Assembly: GCF_030646925.1 (NCBI RefSeq)
Contig: NZ_JAUSKL010000038.1
Coordinates: 1 to 64,000 of the forward strand
Source of the DNA: Candidatus Binatus sp.
Lineage (GTDB): Bacteria; Desulfobacterota; Binatia; Binatales; Binataceae
Reading direction: 5' to 3'
Length of the DNA stretch: 64,000 nt
Each line of letters starts with the position of its first letter. The first letter of the stretch is position 1. The translations under genes and the position numbers were made by a program. Positions 33,285-52,110 of the stretch are shown one piece after another. The notes under the pieces are model-generated. The model ran no database searches and had not been told where the DNA came from. It saw only the letters and a list, made by a program, of their open reading frames with translations.

Positions 33285-33446
33285 CCGCGCCAAATGGGTC
33301 TAACTCGAAAGTCCATTGAATCAAAGCAGGTTGGCTTTCGTCATAGTCGCCGAGCGTCGGCGCATTTGCAATATCACGCGGTTGCGGAGCCGCGCGACGC
33401 TGAAATAAGCTCACGAAGTTTACACGAAACTGCGGAGGAAGCTCGC

Positions 33447-36029
33447 ATGAGCCGCAATTTGTTTTTGGCGCTGGCCGCCGCGATGTTGTTCCTTGGTTCA
33501 GCCGCACCCTCTTCGGCTGAACCCGATCCCTCATCGAATCAGATCACGATGAACTTTCAGAACGTGGACCTGCCGGTATTGGCCAAGTTCATCAGCGAAA
33601 TTACCGGCCGCAACTTCGTAATCGACGAAAGCGTGCGCGGCAAGGTTACAATCATCTCGCCGACCAAGGTGACGCCCGAGCAGGCCTATTCGATTTTTCA
33701 ATCCGTGCTGCAGGTCAAGGGATTCACCACGGTGCAGGCGGGCAAGGTGATCAAGATTGTGCCTGCGCGCAACGTGCGGTCGTCGGCGGCGCTGACCAAG
33801 TCGCAGGAACCCGCTCAGAGCAAGGGCGACGAATACGTCACGCGCATGGTGCGGCTTAAGAATGTCGATGCGGGCTCGCTGGTGAGCGTGATCCAGCCGA
33901 TGATCTCGCACGACGGATTGATCGCGGCTTTTCCCGGCGACAATACGCTGATCATCACCGATGACGCCTACAACGTCGAGCGGCTGCTCACGATTATCGG
34001 CAGCCTCGACGTGCGCGGTGAGCAGCAGGCGGTGAATGTGATCCCGCTGAAGCTCGCGTTCGCGGCGGAACTGGCGCCCGAAATCCAGCAGATCATGGAC
34101 GCGCGCAGTACCGGCGGCGGAAGCTCGGCGCCTGGCCGCCAGGCGATGGGTGCGGTGGCGCCGTCGGCGCAAGGCGCGGCCAACGGATTCAAGGTTATCG
34201 CCGACGAGCGGACCAATTCGCTGATCGTGCTGGCCGGGCCGATTCCGATGCGCCAGATCAATGAAATCGTGTCGAAACTCGATGTGTCGCCGCCCAACGC
34301 GACCTCGCGCATTCACGTATATCGGCTAAAAAATGCGCAAGCGCTCGGGATGGTGATGGTGCTCAACAACCTGCTCAATGGAGGCAGTGGACCTAGCACC
34401 CTCTCGCCCATGACGGGTCGAGGCTCGCTGGGCCGCGGCAGCTCGCTCGGCAACTACGGCGGCGGCGGCGGTATGGGTGGCGCCGGATTCGGCGGGGGCG
34501 GATTCGGTGGCGGCGGCATGGGGGGGATGGGCGGCGGCATGGGCGGCGGCGGATACGGCGGCGGTGGGATGGGCATGGGTGGCATGGGCGGTGGCGGCTA
34601 TGGTGGTGGCGGCGGTGGCGGTGGCGGCATGATGCGTGGCCGAGGGATGTCTGGCGGGGGCATGGGCGGGACAGCGTCGGCCAGCACTGGCGGCAAGAGT
34701 ATCGATTTCACTTATCCGGTGAATGTGACGGCCGACCCCGCGACCAACGCGATGGTTATCAGTGCGTCGCCGCAGGATTGGCAAACGCTCAAGCAAATTA
34801 TCGACGACCTCGACGTTCCGCGCGTGCAGATTTTCGTGCAGGCGGTACTGGTGGAAGTATCGGCCGAACGCCAACGCCAGCTCGGGATAAATTTTCAGGC
34901 TGCGACCAACATCAGCGGCAGCACGATCGGTTTCGGCACGCTTAATTTCGGGCAGTTGCAATCGGCCCTGGGCAATCCGCTCGGACTGAGCGGACTCGGA
35001 CTCGGCCTGGCGTCGGGCAGCCTTTGCACCATCCCGAGTGCAGTTGCCGCGACCGCCGGCGCCACGGCCGGCACGGTTAGCGTTCCGTGCGATATCGCGC
35101 TGCTGACCGCGCTCGAAACCGACACGCATACGAATATCCTGTCGGCGCCGACGCTGCTGACCGCGGACAACGAAGAGGCGATGATCGTGGTCGGCCAGAA
35201 TCTGCCGTTCGTCGGCTCGGCGGCGGCCAACGCGGGTCTGCCCGGACAGATCTTCAACTCGGTCGCGCGGCAGAACGTCGGTATCACGCTCGATATCGTT
35301 CCGCAGGTTTCCGAAGGCGACTACGTGAAGCTCGATCTTTACGAGGAAGTTTCCAACGTGGTGAATGGCACGCAGACCAACACCCTGGGACCGACGACTA
35401 CGATCAGATCCGCCTCGACGACGGTGCTGATTCAGAACCATCGCACGGCCGTGATTGGCGGGCTGCTCGCGAGCCAGGATCAAATTCAAAACCAGGGCGT
35501 ACCCTTTCTTTCGAGCATCCCGGTGATCGGCAACCTGTTCAGCAGCAAGAGCAACGATCGGCAGAAGGACAACCTGATTGTGTTCCTTACGCCGCACGTG
35601 GTCCGCAACAAGACAGATCTGCGATCGCTCGCGCTGGACGAACGGCAGAGGTTCGTCAATTCGCTCGGCCGCAAGGAAGTCCACGATATGCCGGCCTCGC
35701 AGATTCACGAGGTGTACAAGCCGAGTTTCTCGATTCCGGTGTCGCCCGATGCGGACCTGAATGCACCTTACAACGCAGCGCCAGTTGCGCCGGGGCCCGA
35801 GAACCCGGGCGCGCGCCGCGTGGCGCCGGGCAACAGTACCGATACGCCGTTCAACACGACCGAGATTGGGCCGACCTCGATGAACAACTCGAATCGCGCG
35901 CCGGCGCCGTTTGATTCGGGCGCGGGAGCTGTTTCGAGCGGCGGTGCGGCAGCCTCCACCAGATACGCCGCGCCATCGAGCGCTCTGAACGCCGCGCGGA
36001 CGGGGGTCACTCCCGCGATTGCGCCCTAG
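33447..36029 (+). CDS. gspD: Type II secretion-like secretin (GspD)
   Basis: About 860 residues with a signal peptide (MSRNLFLALAAAMLFLG). The N0 domain contains MNFQNVDLPVLAKFISEITG; N1 to N3 repeats follow, then a Gly/Met-rich tract (about 338-409), and the secretin domain with VPFLSSIPVIGNLFSSKSND and LIVFLTPHVVR. It forms the outer-membrane pore for folded proteins. ATG 33447 is preceded by a clear GGAGGAAG ribosome site, which decides the start. No gspC or gspE-M genes are nearby. The C-terminal 150 residues are Pro/Ala/Asn-rich and look disordered. Confidence 0.93.
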   Translation: MSRNLFLALAAAMLFLGSAAPSSAEPDPSSNQITMNFQNVDLPVLAKFISEITGRNFVIDESVRGKVTIISPTKVTPEQAYSIFQSVLQVKGFTTVQAGKVIKIVPARNVRSSAALTKSQEPAQSKGDEYVTRMVRLKNVDAGSLVSVIQPMISHDGLIAAFPGDNTLIITDDAYNVERLLTIIGSLDVRGEQQAVNVIPLKLAFAAELAPEIQQIMDARSTGGGSSAPGRQAMGAVAPSAQGAANGFKVIADERTNSLIVLAGPIPMRQINEIVSKLDVSPPNATSRIHVYRLKNAQALGMVMVLNNLLNGGSGPSTLSPMTGRGSLGRGSSLGNYGGGGGMGGAGFGGGGFGGGGMGGMGGGMGGGGYGGGGMGMGGMGGGGYGGGGGGGGGMMRGRGMSGGGMGGTASASTGGKSIDFTYPVNVTADPATNAMVISASPQDWQTLKQIIDDLDVPRVQIFVQAVLVEVSAERQRQLGINFQAATNISGSTIGFGTLNFGQLQSALGNPLGLSGLGLGLASGSLCTIPSAVAATAGATAGTVSVPCDIALLTALETDTHTNILSAPTLLTADNEEAMIVVGQNLPFVGSAAANAGLPGQIFNSVARQNVGITLDIVPQVSEGDYVKLDLYEEVSNVVNGTQTNTLGPTTTIRSASTTVLIQNHRTAVIGGLLASQDQIQNQGVPFLSSIPVIGNLFSSKSNDRQKDNLIVFLTPHVVRNKTDLRSLALDERQRFVNSLGRKEVHDMPASQIHEVYKPSFSIPVSPDADLNAPYNAAPVAPGPENPGARRVAPGNSTDTPFNTTEIGPTSMNNSNRAPAPFDSGAGAVSSGGAAASTRYAAPSSALNAARTGVTPAIAP
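34458..34674 (+). repeat. Gly/Met-rich low-complexity tract inside the secretin gene
   Basis: About 70 codons consist almost only of Gly, Met, Tyr and Phe, in short units such as GGGGYGGGGM and GGMGG. The DNA is a GGC/GGT/ATG run. It lies between the N-domains and the secretin core, where many secretins carry a Gly-rich linker in N3. Here it is unusually long and methionine-rich. Such repeats are prone to length change by slippage. Confidence 0.85.
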
Positions 36030-36113: not shown

Positions 36114-37034
36114 ATGGCGCGACAGATAGGTGCCGTTCAGGCTCGAATCGAATACACCGGCATCGCGGCGGTCGTCGCGGCGTTGCGAGCGATGCCGCTG
36201 GAGCGCGCGGTGAGGGCCGGCGCGCGGCTCGGTGGATGGGCGATGAACTTCGATCGTCCCAATCGCAGAATCGCGCTGACCAACCTCGAGATCGCCTTTC
36301 CGGATTACACAGTGCAAGCGCGCCTCGGAATTTTGCGCGCGATGTACAAAAGTTGGGGAAGGATGCTTGCCGAGTGGACCCACTTCGGCGATCTCAGCCG
36401 CGCGACGATCGAACGCGTCGCGACCTACGAAGGGAAGCAACACTGGGACGACGCCGAGCGGAAATCGAAGGGCCGCGGCCTGCTGGTATTGAGCGGTCAC
36501 TACGGGAATTTCGAACTGCTGCAGCTCGCGCATTCGATTTACGGCTATCACATCGCGATTGTGCATCGGGCGCTGCGCAATCCGCTGATCGACGCGGCCG
36601 TATGCGGCGCACGCGTGCGCTACGGAAATCGGGTCATCGAGCGTAAGGCGGGCGGCGCGGAGATGCTGCGGATGCTGCGCAAGAACTGGATGATCGCGAT
36701 CGCGCTCGATCTCGACGTGCGCAAAGGCGTGTTCGTCGATTTCTTCGGCAAGCCCGCCTCGACCAGCGACGGGATGGCGCGGCTTGCGGTGGCGATGGGC
36801 ACGCCGGTCGTGCCGGTGTTCATGGTGCGGCAGGGCGACACGATTCGCCACAAAATAAAAATCCTGCCGCAGATCGAGATCGTGAAAACCCGCGATCGCG
36901 AAGAATGCGTGCGCGAGAATACCCAGCGCTTCACCAACACGCTCGAGCAGATGATTCGCGAACATCCCGATCACTGGAACTGGATTCATCGGCGCTGGAA
37001 GACGCGGCCGCCGGGAGAGCATCGCTTCTATTGA
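36114..37034 (+). CDS. lpxL: Lipid A biosynthesis acyltransferase, LpxL/HtrB-like
   Basis: A 306-residue LPLAT family protein. VLSGHYGNFELLQLAHS has the catalytic HX4E motif, followed by AIVHRALRNPLID and IALDLDVRKGVFVDFFGKPA. The C-terminal HPDHWNWIHRRWKTRP is typical of late acyltransferases. It adds a secondary acyl chain to Kdo2-lipid A at the inner membrane. It lies 84 bases downstream of the secretin gene on the same strand, away from the main lipid A block. Confidence 0.9.
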   Translation: MARQIGAVQARIEYTGIAAVVAALRAMPLERAVRAGARLGGWAMNFDRPNRRIALTNLEIAFPDYTVQARLGILRAMYKSWGRMLAEWTHFGDLSRATIERVATYEGKQHWDDAERKSKGRGLLVLSGHYGNFELLQLAHSIYGYHIAIVHRALRNPLIDAAVCGARVRYGNRVIERKAGGAEMLRMLRKNWMIAIALDLDVRKGVFVDFFGKPASTSDGMARLAVAMGTPVVPVFMVRQGDTIRHKIKILPQIEIVKTRDREECVRENTQRFTNTLEQMIREHPDHWNWIHRRWKTRPPGEHRFY

Positions 37035-49080: not shown

Positions 49081-51096
49081 TCACAATCCCTTGCCGCCGT
49101 TTCCGCAGAAAGAGACGGTGTAGTTCACCAGTAGGTTCGTGGTGTTCGTGCAGCTCCAATCGCTCGAGGTATCGTCGAACTGGTACGAATAGGCGCTCGG
49201 GCAGGCAGCCTTGAAGATCGAAATGTAATTGTTGCTGCCGGTCTTGATTTGATTATTGGCGTTGGTCCAGTTTTGGTTCACGGCCCCGCAGACGCCGGTA
49301 TAAACCGAGTTGACCTGGCAGATGCATTGTCCCCCGGTGCACGCCAGCCCCTGTTTGTTCAAGCAATTCGTGCTGGCGGTACAGTCGGAGTTACTCGAGC
49401 AGGATTTCACGTCGTTGCAGACGCATCCCTCGGGATCGCTTGCGCCCGAGCATTCGGTGACGGCTTGCGCCTGGACGGCGCCGCTCGCCGGAAATTTGCG
49501 AACGGTCTTTTCGAGGCAATACTGGCCGGTGGCGCATCCGCTGTCGGAAGTGCAGGTGGTTGCAGTCGCCGTGAAGTTGTCAGCGTTCCAAACTAACTCT
49601 CCGAAGGCGGCGTTACCTGTGGCTGTCGCGGTTATAGGAGGTACGCAGAAGGTTAGCTGTGCGCCTGAGCCGTCATTGGTAAGCGTGCCGCACTTATAGC
49701 CGGGAAACGGAAAAATAAAGCTTGCCGACGGGCACACCTTGCCATCATCGGCTGTGCTGGTGCATGCGCCGTTCTGCGGGATGGTTCCGTTGCCAGGGAC
49801 GCAGACTCCGGCGCCGGCTGGAAAAGTGATCTTGCTTGCGGCGGTGAAGGTCGGATTGAAGATGCACTTGGTGCCGGGCGCGCAATCGTCGGCGGAAAAG
49901 CAGATTGGCGTGCCGGCATTCGCCGATACTAAATTGATCGGATTGCCGAATGGATCGCGTTCCGTGGTCAGCTTGTTCGCGCATAGGAAGAAAGAATTGT
50001 TCTGTGCGCTGCAGGTAGGCGTACCAGCTCCAGCTCCCGCGCAGTAGTCATCGGGCGAATCGCAGGCGGTTACACAATGACCGCCGGAACATGGCGCCTT
50101 ACGGGGGCAATCGCTCGCGGCGGTGCAGCTAAGACTCGAGTCAGTAACCCTCAGCACCGCGGGGCAGGTCGTCAGCAAAGGATCGGGCGCCGTTTGAGAG
50201 TAACTGCAAGCGCCGGTCTGGCAGGTGGAAGTCGTGGTGCGCCAGGCCAGCTTATAGGGCGAAGTGGAAGTCGAAGGGTCTGGCACGTTGCCGCCGAGCA
50301 CTGTCGAAAATTTCGGCACTACGGTTCCGCTATTAGCTGTGGTCGCGCTGCCGGTGGCGTCATTGAACAACCACTCGAAGGAGCCCGCTGAGGCGGTGAT
50401 TACCGATTGCTTCAAGCCGCCTTGCCCGTTGTGATAAGGGCTGCTGGGTTTCCAGCCAAGAGTGTCAGTCGGTGGCACCGCCTGCACGGTAAGCGGCACA
50501 TTATATCCACTGACGAGACTTACATCGTAGTTATCCTGACCGCTCAGACCCGCCAGACTCATCTCAAATAGTGTCGCGCGATTGGCAGTACCGACGCCGA
50601 AGCAGTCCAGTTTCCCACCGCAGTCGCCGGTGTCGCAGCTAAGGTTCGCGCCCGACCCGGTACAGCCGGTGCGTCCCCAAATCCGGGCGCTAGGATACGC
50701 GGCTGGTACCAGCAGCGAAGTCTCGGTCGCGCAATGAAACTTGCCAGTCGCACCCGCAACACAAGCGGCGCCGTAGCAATTTGTCGTGTTGCTAGCCGCC
50801 GCGGCGGGACAGCTACACTGGCTGTTTACGCATTTCGAACCGGATCCCGGACACGGATTGGCCGAGGCGGCGTTGCATGATGGGGCCAGTTCCCATCCAT
50901 GGGCGGGCGTCACGTCCTGGACTTTGCTGAAAGCGGCGATCCAGATTGGTTGCGGGCAGTTATTGGCAAAATTGATCTCGTGGGTAGTCGGCGCCGCTGC
51001 GAGCGCATCGCGACTATTCGATGACAGGCTTGATATCAAGAGCAGGGCGACGATCATGATTGCGCATTGGCTGAAGTAGCGAATAAGACGATTCAT
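49081..51096 (-). CDS. Giant thaumatin-family secreted protein with cysteine-rich insertions
   Basis: A 671-residue protein with a signal peptide (about 1-35). Residues 40-75 and 135-205 are thaumatin-like: INFANNCPQPIWIAAF and ARIWGRTGC, DTGDCGGKLDCFG and ISLVSGYNVPL-type sequence (DVSLVSGYNVPL). The fold is completed only near the C-terminus, at 624-664: FKAACPSAYSYQFDDTSSDW. Between them lies a long insertion rich in Cys, with repeats such as CTSDSGCATGQYC, CFSADDCAPGTKC and CSSNSDCTASTNC. Family members are about 210-250 residues, so about 400 extra residues are inserted. Function unknown; plant relatives bind glucans. Confidence 0.82.
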   Translation of the reverse strand: MNRLIRYFSQCAIMIVALLLISSLSSNSRDALAAAPTTHEINFANNCPQPIWIAAFSKVQDVTPAHGWELAPSCNAASANPCPGSGSKCVNSQCSCPAAAASNTTNCYGAACVAGATGKFHCATETSLLVPAAYPSARIWGRTGCTGSGANLSCDTGDCGGKLDCFGVGTANRATLFEMSLAGLSGQDNYDVSLVSGYNVPLTVQAVPPTDTLGWKPSSPYHNGQGGLKQSVITASAGSFEWLFNDATGSATTANSGTVVPKFSTVLGGNVPDPSTSTSPYKLAWRTTTSTCQTGACSYSQTAPDPLLTTCPAVLRVTDSSLSCTAASDCPRKAPCSGGHCVTACDSPDDYCAGAGAGTPTCSAQNNSFFLCANKLTTERDPFGNPINLVSANAGTPICFSADDCAPGTKCIFNPTFTAASKITFPAGAGVCVPGNGTIPQNGACTSTADDGKVCPSASFIFPFPGYKCGTLTNDGSGAQLTFCVPPITATATGNAAFGELVWNADNFTATATTCTSDSGCATGQYCLEKTVRKFPASGAVQAQAVTECSGASDPEGCVCNDVKSCSSNSDCTASTNCLNKQGLACTGGQCICQVNSVYTGVCGAVNQNWTNANNQIKTGSNNYISIFKAACPSAYSYQFDDTSSDWSCTNTTNLLVNYTVSFCGNGGKGL

Positions 51097-51114: not shown

Positions 51115-52110
51115 CTACAGCTTAAGAGCGATGCCAAATGGGAGGTCGAGAGCAGTCGCGGAACCCGCAAGAACCGCGACCGGGGCGACGTCGCCGCTTG
51201 CACCCGAAGTAAAAGTAAGGATGCTGTTGTTGAGGCTGCTCGAGACGAGCAGATTGCCTTTGCGATCGATAGCGAGGCCGCCCGGTCCATCGATTCCAGT
51301 TGCGGTGCCGCTGATTATTGCGCTCGGTGGAACATCGCCGTTCGAGTTGGGCGGGTAGATGGTGATGCTGTCGCCCTCAAAATTCGCGACGTACAAATTG
51401 CCGGACGCGTCGAAGGCAAGGGCGTCGGGCGACTTAAGGCTCGTGCTGAGGCCATAGATGCGAGCGATGAAGGCCGCATTGCCGTTTGCGCCGGGTGCAT
51501 ACTCGGTAATCGAGTTAGCCGCGGTGTTTGCGACAAAGAGGTCGCCGGCCTGATCGAGCGCGACGTCTTCGGGCATCCTCAATCCAGTTGCAGGTCCGTT
51601 GATCGAGAGAATCGGCTCCGCGTCGCCGTTGCTGCCGGCTGGATACACGCAAATCGTGTTACCGCCGGCGTTCGCGACGTAGATCTGCCCCGCAGAGTCA
51701 ACGATCACACCTTCGGGGTTTTGCAAGCGCGTGTTATCGCCAACGATCGTTCGAGTCGGAGCCGTATCGCCGAAGCTCTTGGCGGCGAACACCGCGATGC
51801 TGCCATTGGAGTTCTCGGTCGGGGGATTTGTCTGATCGTTGGCGACGTACACCGCCCCGGCCGAATCCACATAGACGTCCTGGGGATTGTCGAGCGTGGT
51901 GTTCGACCCGGTCAGCGTTTTGCGCGGCTTCGCATCGCCGCTCGACTTCGACCGATAGAATGTCACTGTGCTGCTGTTGCCGTTAGGCGCGATCAGACTC
52001 TGCGATGACGACGATACCGGGCCTGCGCCGCCCCCGTCGTTGCCGCATCCCGCGCTCGCGAGCAGGACTGCCGAGAACAGCCAGAGCGCCACCTTCGATT
52101 GTTTGCTCAA
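51115..52110 (-). CDS. NHL-repeat beta-propeller lipoprotein
   Basis: A 331-residue lipoprotein (lipobox LLASAGCGN) with a low-complexity Ser/Gly stretch, then about six repeats of 46-55 residues with the pattern LxxPxxVxxDxxGxxYVAN, for example NPEGVIVDSAGQIYVANAGG and MPEDVALDQAGDLFVANTAA. This is an NHL/SMP-30-like beta-propeller, probably extracytoplasmic and possibly protein- or glycan-binding. It lies just upstream of the thaumatin-like gene (18 bases), suggesting a joint function. Confidence 0.85.
   Translation of the reverse strand: MSKQSKVALWLFSAVLLASAGCGNDGGGAGPVSSSSQSLIAPNGNSSTVTFYRSKSSGDAKPRKTLTGSNTTLDNPQDVYVDSAGAVYVANDQTNPPTENSNGSIAVFAAKSFGDTAPTRTIVGDNTRLQNPEGVIVDSAGQIYVANAGGNTICVYPAGSNGDAEPILSINGPATGLRMPEDVALDQAGDLFVANTAANSITEYAPGANGNAAFIARIYGLSTSLKSPDALAFDASGNLYVANFEGDSITIYPPNSNGDVPPSAIISGTATGIDGPGGLAIDRKGNLLVSSSLNNSILTFTSGASGDVAPVAVLAGSATALDLPFGIALKL

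Follow-up and report, generated by a model that had tools for sequence, protein, structure and literature searches.

The window, the whole stretch of DNA that we analysed (64,000 nucleotides from Candidatus Binatus sp., of the class Binatia), contains an intact open reading frame on the minus strand at 49081–51096, which encodes a giant thaumatin-like protein of 671 residues. The purine-rich stretch AAGAAGGA lies a few bases 5′ of its ATG, and a gene for an NHL-repeat lipoprotein is located directly upstream. Full-length orthologues were found in three loci (L022, L023, and L024) among the 15 loci obtained in a scan of named genomes, so that four orthologous proteins, including that of the window, can be compared. 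The features are as follows, with the insertion boundaries approximate, as read off the alignments.

51115–52110, minus strand: NHL-repeat β-propeller lipoprotein, directly upstream of the thaumatin (NHL match E 6.7e-19; lipobox; conserved gene pair)
49081–51096, minus strand: giant thaumatin-like protein, 671 residues (open reading frame; Pfam family PF00314; thaumatins of the PDB)
50995–51096, minus strand: predicted signal peptide lacking a lipobox, residues ~1–34 (basic start, hydrophobic core, ALA-AAP end; boundary estimated from the sequence)
50878–50994, minus strand: first strands of the thaumatin core, residues 35–73 (profile piece 40–72; C47 in all four orthologues)
50731–50877, minus strand: cysteine-rich insertion 1, residues ~74–122, with 8 cysteines (8, 8, and 6 of the 8 kept in L022, L023, and L024)
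50458–50730, minus strand: thaumatin core with the cleft residues Arg138, Glu178, and Asp191, and Ser196 in place of Asp102 (PDB and orthologue alignments)
50224–50457, minus strand: cysteine-free insertion 2a, residues ~214–291 (in all four orthologues)
50041–50223, minus strand: remnant of domain II, residues ~292–352, with 9 cysteines (profile piece 289–343, not significant alone)
49600–50040, minus strand: first part of the outer step of insertion 2b, residues ~353–499 (related to the insertions of L036, L033, and L030)
49306–49599, minus strand: nested segment with 12 cysteines inside insertion 2b, residues ~500–597 (alignment and cysteine positions)
49246–49305, minus strand: last part of the outer step of insertion 2b, residues ~598–617 (alignment)
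49084–49245, minus strand: C-terminal strands completing the fold, with Cys632, Cys649, Cys664, and Asp641-Asp642 (profile match and model range to residue 634)
33294–36029: GspD secretin (TIGR02517, 537 bits against a cut-off of 351)

The composition of the thaumatin is Ser/Thr-rich with a high cysteine content: in our reading of the sequence, 48 of the 49 cysteines follow the signal peptide, and one lies within it. The pattern C-x5-C-x5-C starts at residues 324, 399, 515, 560, and 566; these five occurrences in residues 35–671 compare with 0.25 per shuffle, and five were reached in none of 20,000 shuffles. The repeats described in the sequence-only reading of this DNA are thus real, and the predicted signal peptide supports its claim of an exported, cysteine-rich protein. 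A pattern scan found no lipobox in the window thaumatin.

How does such a long chain accommodate the thaumatin fold? The protein matches PF00314 with an E-value of 5e-24 (85.6 bits), passing the gathering cut-off of 27.4, and its best sequence match in the PDB is the apple thaumatin-like protein 3zs3 (E 3.1e-18). The profile of the four orthologues aligns with 3zs3 in the collinear pieces 40–72, 124–203, 289–343, and 617–658, among which the last reaches an i-E of 0.0002; taken singly, the first and third fall short of significance. AlphaFold2, run on the mature protein with 12 alignment rows, gave a poor model (pLDDT 54.1, pTM 0.36). With this low-confidence model as the query, all 11 Foldseek matches in the PDB at E ≤ 0.001 are thaumatin-type, as are the best 28 rows of the VIA comparison (Z 8.7–10.7), where the top row (Z 10.7, 141 residues, rmsd 3.2) places model residues 6–634 on chain residues 1–207. 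These results establish that the window protein belongs to the thaumatin family and that both of its ends complete one fold, as had been proposed from the sequence; for the C-terminal segment, this is indicated by both the profile piece 617–658 and the VIA alignment reaching residue 634. Of the 16 cysteines that pair into eight disulfides in the thaumatin family, those at the core positions of domain I and the C-terminal part are present and conserved, while the domain II equivalents are unassignable amid the 48 cysteines. Further down the VIA rows, where Z-values below 8 may reflect only a shared arrangement, the thaumatins are followed by the GH64 β-1,3-glucanases (Z 7.4 and 6.7) and then by the aegerolysins, which are membrane-binding proteins (Z 6.1–6.5). 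As the aegerolysins follow so closely, GH64 is no special structural neighbor of the window thaumatin.

The extra residues, amounting to ~50 near the N terminus and ~360 in domain II, extend the span from D191 to C632 to 441 residues, as compared to 78 residues (D97–C175) in the tomato thaumatin NP24. The total size of the 400-residue insertion described in the sequence-only reading therefore stands, but it is not a single block: it consists of the N-terminal piece and several domain II pieces, which are partly nested. Insertion 2a is mostly missing from the eight proteins that accompany the four orthologues in alignment A2. The outer part of insertion 2b (residues ~353–617) is related to the insertion of the paralogue L036 (hhalign E 4.8e-5, probability 68%), while its nested segment of ~98 residues and 12 cysteines, present in all four orthologues, is absent from L036, L033, and L030. 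When insertion 2b of the four orthologues was searched against Pfam, nothing exceeded the cut-off, the best match being the DX module (E 0.037); no known separate domain was thus found in the insertion, in line with the sequence-only reading. No significant match was found among the PDB sequences (best E 0.22), and Foldseek with the low-confidence model of insertion 2b (7 alignment rows, pLDDT 58.2) gave none in the PDB at E ≤ 0.001; its rows, mostly antibodies with E-values of 1.5 or worse, are noise. On these searches, we rejected the possibility that the insertion is a known domain, more securely at the level of sequence than at that of the fold, given the poor model. A mobile domain occurring outside thaumatins was also rejected, because all of the profile matches sit in thaumatin frames: the four-row insertion profile matched 7 of the 148 class genomes, with four strong matches (E 1e-92 or better) that are the rows themselves and three weak ones (E 1.7e-7 to 1e-5), again in thaumatin frames. 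Weak matches to the insertion-2b profile fall in the loci L065–L067.

The giant thaumatin might be an enzyme or protease inhibitor, its cysteine-rich inserts being knottin-like inhibitor modules carried on a thaumatin scaffold, which would guard the cell from the hydrolases of competitors or predators. Sub-threshold Pfam matches of insertion 2b to the Squash inhibitor (E 0.065) and ACI44 (E 0.52) families, each in one of the four orthologues, point in this direction, together with the thaumatin-like xylanase inhibitor 3g7m among the structural matches. However, these E-values are at the chance level, the DX module scores just as well, and the retention of the ligand cleft described below would be needless in an inhibitor of this kind. 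We consider this account unlikely.

Next, we compared the ligand cleft with that of osmotin, in which the acidic cleft consists of Glu84, Asp97, Asp102, and Asp185, according to a review (PMC4360817). In the alignment to the PDB thaumatin, these residues correspond to E178, D191, S196, and D642 of the window protein, and the Asp102 position is likewise serine in its three orthologues. A comparison of 30 distinct thaumatins shows Glu84 and Asp185 retained in all 30 and Asp97 in 29, but Asp102 in only 8, with Ser in 13, Asn in 7, and Ala in 2 at that position. Three acidic positions of the cleft are thus maintained, and most of these proteins have lost the fourth. The REDDD cleft of the antifungal-type PR-5 thaumatins is therefore incomplete in the window protein, with four of its five residues (R138, E178, D191, and D642) kept and Ser196 at the Asp102 position; here, R138 is presumably the Arg of REDDD. 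This mostly kept acidic cleft is compatible with glycan binding, which it does not in itself show.

Could the cleft be catalytic? A glucanase hydrolyzing β-1,3-glucan, with the insertion serving as a carbohydrate-binding attachment, would account for the retention of Glu178 and two Asp residues and for the GH64 glucanases as the next structural neighbors after the thaumatins; moreover, β-1,3-glucanase activity is described as typical of fungal thaumatin-like proteins in a review (PMC13148976). On the other hand, one cleft Asp is lost in the window protein and its orthologues, and Pfam matched no carbohydrate-binding module in insertion 2b. In addition, thaumatins generally act on glucan only weakly. 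We regard a catalytic role as improbable, ranking behind inhibition.

The orthologues share the same architecture, with identities to the window protein of 80% (L022), 54% (L023), and 39% (L024). A frameshift or chimera was rejected as the origin of the giant thaumatin, because the orthologues keep both the reading frame and the architecture. Insertion 2b is 79, 57, and 40% identical in L022, L023, and L024, respectively, where 23, 23, and 22 of its 23 cysteines are kept, and the cysteines after the signal peptide number 48 in the window protein, 48 in L022, 48 in L023, and 44 in L024. Between the window and L022, the dN/dS ratio is 0.080 for the core, 0.091 for insertion 2a, 0.110 for insertion 2b, 0.215 for insertion 1 (the highest among the inserts), and 0.257 for the signal peptide; the ratios are given for this pair, and none is given for the window and L023, between which synonymous changes are saturated or nearly so. 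These sequence comparisons show a conserved architecture and purifying selection on the inserts. In a tree of the 30 concatenated core segments, the four orthologues lie on one fork (94/91, not starred; 98% of the bootstrap trees). Because many forks of this tree are open and its root is the midpoint, we do not claim a placement for the origin of the outer insertion step.

The constraint on the inserts also bears on the idea of a structural or protective surface protein, in which the thaumatin would act as a disulfide-hardened coat or adhesion part that binds no ligand specifically, and the cysteine-rich pieces would be expendable bulk. The high cysteine content and the Ser/Thr-rich composition fit such a role, as do the widely differing insert sizes of the thaumatin paralogues, but expendable bulk is hard to reconcile with inserts 2a and 2b that are nearly as constrained as the core, with 22 or 23 of the 23 cysteines of 2b kept, and with a largely kept cleft. 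We place this account behind the catalytic one and give it little credence.

Thaumatins have been described chiefly as small proteins of plants, fungi, and animals, and the sequence-only reading took them to be mostly eukaryotic. In the wider survey, bacterial thaumatins prove less rare than this suggests. PF00314 occurs in 26 of the 148 genomes of the class Binatia and in 14 of the 395 genomes sampled from the phylum, both counts including the window's own genome, and bacterial thaumatins are also represented by the Amycolatopsis protein 7p22 and by Legionella. The gap between two core anchors, measured on the 30 distinct thaumatins, is 181–412 residues in 25 proteins, all from Binatia, and 95 in one other Binatia protein (L037), while the four thaumatins from outside the class have gaps of 62, 116, 127, and 159. 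The enlarged domain II is therefore typical of the class rather than a one-off, with 25 of the 26 distinct Binatia thaumatins measured possessing it. This count leaves out 13 one-anchor reading frames (12 loci) and three Legionella loci (L029, L031, and L034), the latter being excluded from every thaumatin measurement; L036 is counted as Binatia from its identity with locus L048/G443, in a genome of the window's family, L032 because it lies on the same assembly as L024, L028 from its title, and the others from the genome they belong to. Viral carriage was rejected from a search of viral contigs, where none of the 18 sequences matching the pattern codes for a relative, and tblastn against plasmids yielded no match.

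Various other thaumatin architectures were observed. The window's own genome encodes a second thaumatin of 587 residues (L002:934–2697; G000:C4), in which the C-terminal anchor was not found. A same-strand frame of at least 282 residues, containing many cysteines and having no Pfam match at E 0.01, ends just upstream of it. In L012:238–1830, an inverse-autotransporter β-domain (PF11924, E 8.4e-7) is followed by a thaumatin fragment (PF00314, E 9.8e-7), and similar-sized proteins in L014, L015, and L020 carry sub-cut-off thaumatin fragments near the C-terminal end and have no PF11924 match. The giant thaumatin in L017:1213–2958 (the same DNA as L011 and L030) is apparently split into two frames, with the N-terminal part in 1213–1740 and the rest in 1777–2958, by either a real break or an assembly error. 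In L003, L010, and L026, a Thr/Pro-rich stalk is C-terminal to the giant thaumatin, and behind the stalk are an ASH domain over the cut-off in L026 and a Cep192-like match just under the cut-off in L003. The 575-residue thaumatin in L028:2233–3960 has 60 cysteines and is thus denser than the window protein.

What accompanies the giant thaumatin? The NHL lipoprotein gene is probably its operon partner, judging from the gene arrangement: the pair occurs in three of the four orthologue loci (the window, L022, and L023), and the distance from the end of the NHL gene to the thaumatin gene is 18 bases in the window, 41 in L022, and 69 in L023 (to the ATG at 2992). The flanks in L022, a thiolase and an MFS transporter, are the same as those in the window, while those in L023 differ: an amidohydrolase-like gene flanks the pair on one side, and an acyltransferase-like gene together with a secretin truncated by the contig on the other, the first two genes being read from the sequence. 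The pair is therefore kept where its surroundings are not. At E ≤ 1e-60, 4 of the 148 class genomes contain an NHL homologue, a count that covers close homologues only, with up to 14 candidates scored per genome; three are the genomes with the pair, and the fourth homologue (L068, G427) is not accompanied by a thaumatin gene. Among the seven genomes listed for the window's genus, two have both the orthologue and the lipoprotein, and five have neither; G264, of this genus, gives a weak, paralogous match only. In L024, the NHL neighbor is absent, a PQQ-type propeller gene follows the thaumatin gene, and a divergent GH1 glycosidase gene precedes it. This GH1 gene and the GH64 rows in VIA provide a weak link to glycans.

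In the paralogues L036, L050, L051, and L056, Pro/Thr repeats separate a lipobox from the thaumatin core, a sequence arrangement that suggests surface display for some paralogues. As the lipobox pattern matched only 7 of the 29 thaumatin frames scanned, with L033 having one in addition to these seven, surface tethering is not the rule among thaumatins. For the soluble, lipobox-free window thaumatin, the NHL lipoprotein may act as the tether. Regarding export, the GspD gene in the window makes a type II secretion system probable in this genome, and type II systems in general carry folded proteins. An acyltransferase-like gene at 36114–37034 (read from the sequence) adjoins the GspD gene. A similar secretin/acyltransferase pair lies beside the thaumatin pair in L023 (5054–7658), while in the window it is ~12 kb off.

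Many thaumatin-like proteins are antifungal (PMC3048497, PMC13148976), and the thaumatin proteins carried by Legionella species are described as eukaryotic-like (PMC4256840), but a weapon or effector against eukaryotic microbes such as fungi or protists, in line with the sequence-only reading, which named fungi or plants as possible targets, is the least probable of the accounts considered here, since Pfam matched no toxin domain in the window protein and the lipoprotein partner suggests tethering.

We therefore favor the reading in which the window protein is a secreted, glycan-binding thaumatin, with an enlarged domain II that widens or retunes the cleft and an NHL lipoprotein that holds it at the cell surface; we assign this reading a probability of about 0.4, and we are far more confident in the anatomy of the giant thaumatin than in the explanation as a whole. 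The thaumatin would be secreted and fold in the oxidizing periplasm, where up to 24 disulfides may form, and the type II secretion system that this genome probably encodes could export the folded protein. The cleft between domain I and the enlarged domain II would then bind a polysaccharide, such as β-glucan. Domain II, which constitutes one wall of the ligand cleft, is enlarged by several partly nested, cysteine-rich insertions, and this enlargement may lengthen or retune the cleft. Finally, the NHL propeller lipoprotein would hold the thaumatin at the cell surface, in a manner similar to the lipobox and Pro/Thr stalk of several paralogues. Several points weigh against this explanation: serine replaces an acidic residue of the cleft, one out of four, in the window protein and its three orthologues; the partnership is imperfect, as L024 lacks the NHL neighbor and the NHL homologue of L068/G427 lacks a thaumatin; only a minority of the thaumatin frames scanned match a lipobox; the models (pLDDT 54 and 58) are too poor to place the insertion along the cleft; and GH64 does not stand out from the aegerolysins.

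A bolder form of this tethered, glycan-binding reading can be envisaged. Together, the giant thaumatin and its NHL propeller lipoprotein would form one surface receptor made of two parts, which lineages acquire and lose jointly. In it, the nested, disulfide-rich domain II would be a new domain, converting a small glycan cleft of the plant type into an extended recognition surface, with which Binatia would capture polysaccharide or attach to eukaryotic cells. We consider this reading unlikely.

The bacterium of the window, from the little-studied class Binatia, encodes a cysteine-packed relative, about three times the usual size, of thaumatin, a protein known in plants for defense and as a sweetener; related species conserve the enlarged form. 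The lineage examined here, which is known from metagenome-assembled genomes, has several kinds of thaumatin. The domain II span is stretched up to ~5.7-fold (441 vs 78 residues), partly by insertion within insertion, with most of the cleft kept. If the cleft still binds glycan, then these proteins provide a natural series of cleft variants (anchor gaps of 62–412) in which the contribution of domain II can be probed, as well as a clue to the way Binatia handle polysaccharides or eukaryotes. The thaumatin family and bacterial thaumatins are already known (7p22; Legionella), while the enlarged, nested domain II and its pairing with a lipoprotein appear to be new, as far as searches of the open-access literature show: we found no open-access paper joining thaumatin with Binatota or Binatia, and no title or abstract among the matches listed concerned enlarged bacterial thaumatins.

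As compared to the plant PR-5 proteins (thaumatin, osmotin, NP24, and Mal d 2), the window protein shares the core strands, the cysteines of domain I and the C-terminal part, and the Glu and two of the three Asp residues of the cleft. In contrast to their ~210–250 residues and 16 cysteines, it has 671 residues and 48 cysteines after the signal peptide, with a domain II that is ~360 residues longer, Ser in place of Asp102, and an NHL lipoprotein partner. It is thus outside the size range of 20–26 kDa given for the antifungal-type PR-5 thaumatins (PMC3048497). Among the bacterial proteins, the Acidobacteria thaumatin L025 belongs to the same family and keeps the cleft with its Asp102 (VSLVD) and a near-plant spacing, while it lacks the domain II insertion (gap of 62, versus 409 in the window protein) and carries other domains behind the thaumatin (886 residues). 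The solved bacterial thaumatin of Amycolatopsis, 7p22, matches the window model with a Z of 9.5, and its chain has only 221 residues. Legionella LegT (NF045527) likewise has a thaumatin domain in a large bacterial protein; its match to the window protein is weak (E 0.00038, 19 bits) and far below the cut-off of 1200. The GH64 β-1,3-glucanases are structural neighbors that do not occur among the sequence matches of the window protein. The other Binatia giants (L036, L033, L030, L026, L028, L003, and others) also have an enlarged domain II, with gaps of 181–349. L036, L033, and L030 share the outer step of insertion 2b with the window protein and lack both insertion 2a and the nested 12-cysteine segment, and L036, L050, L051, and L056, unlike the window thaumatin, are predicted lipoproteins with Pro/Thr stalks.
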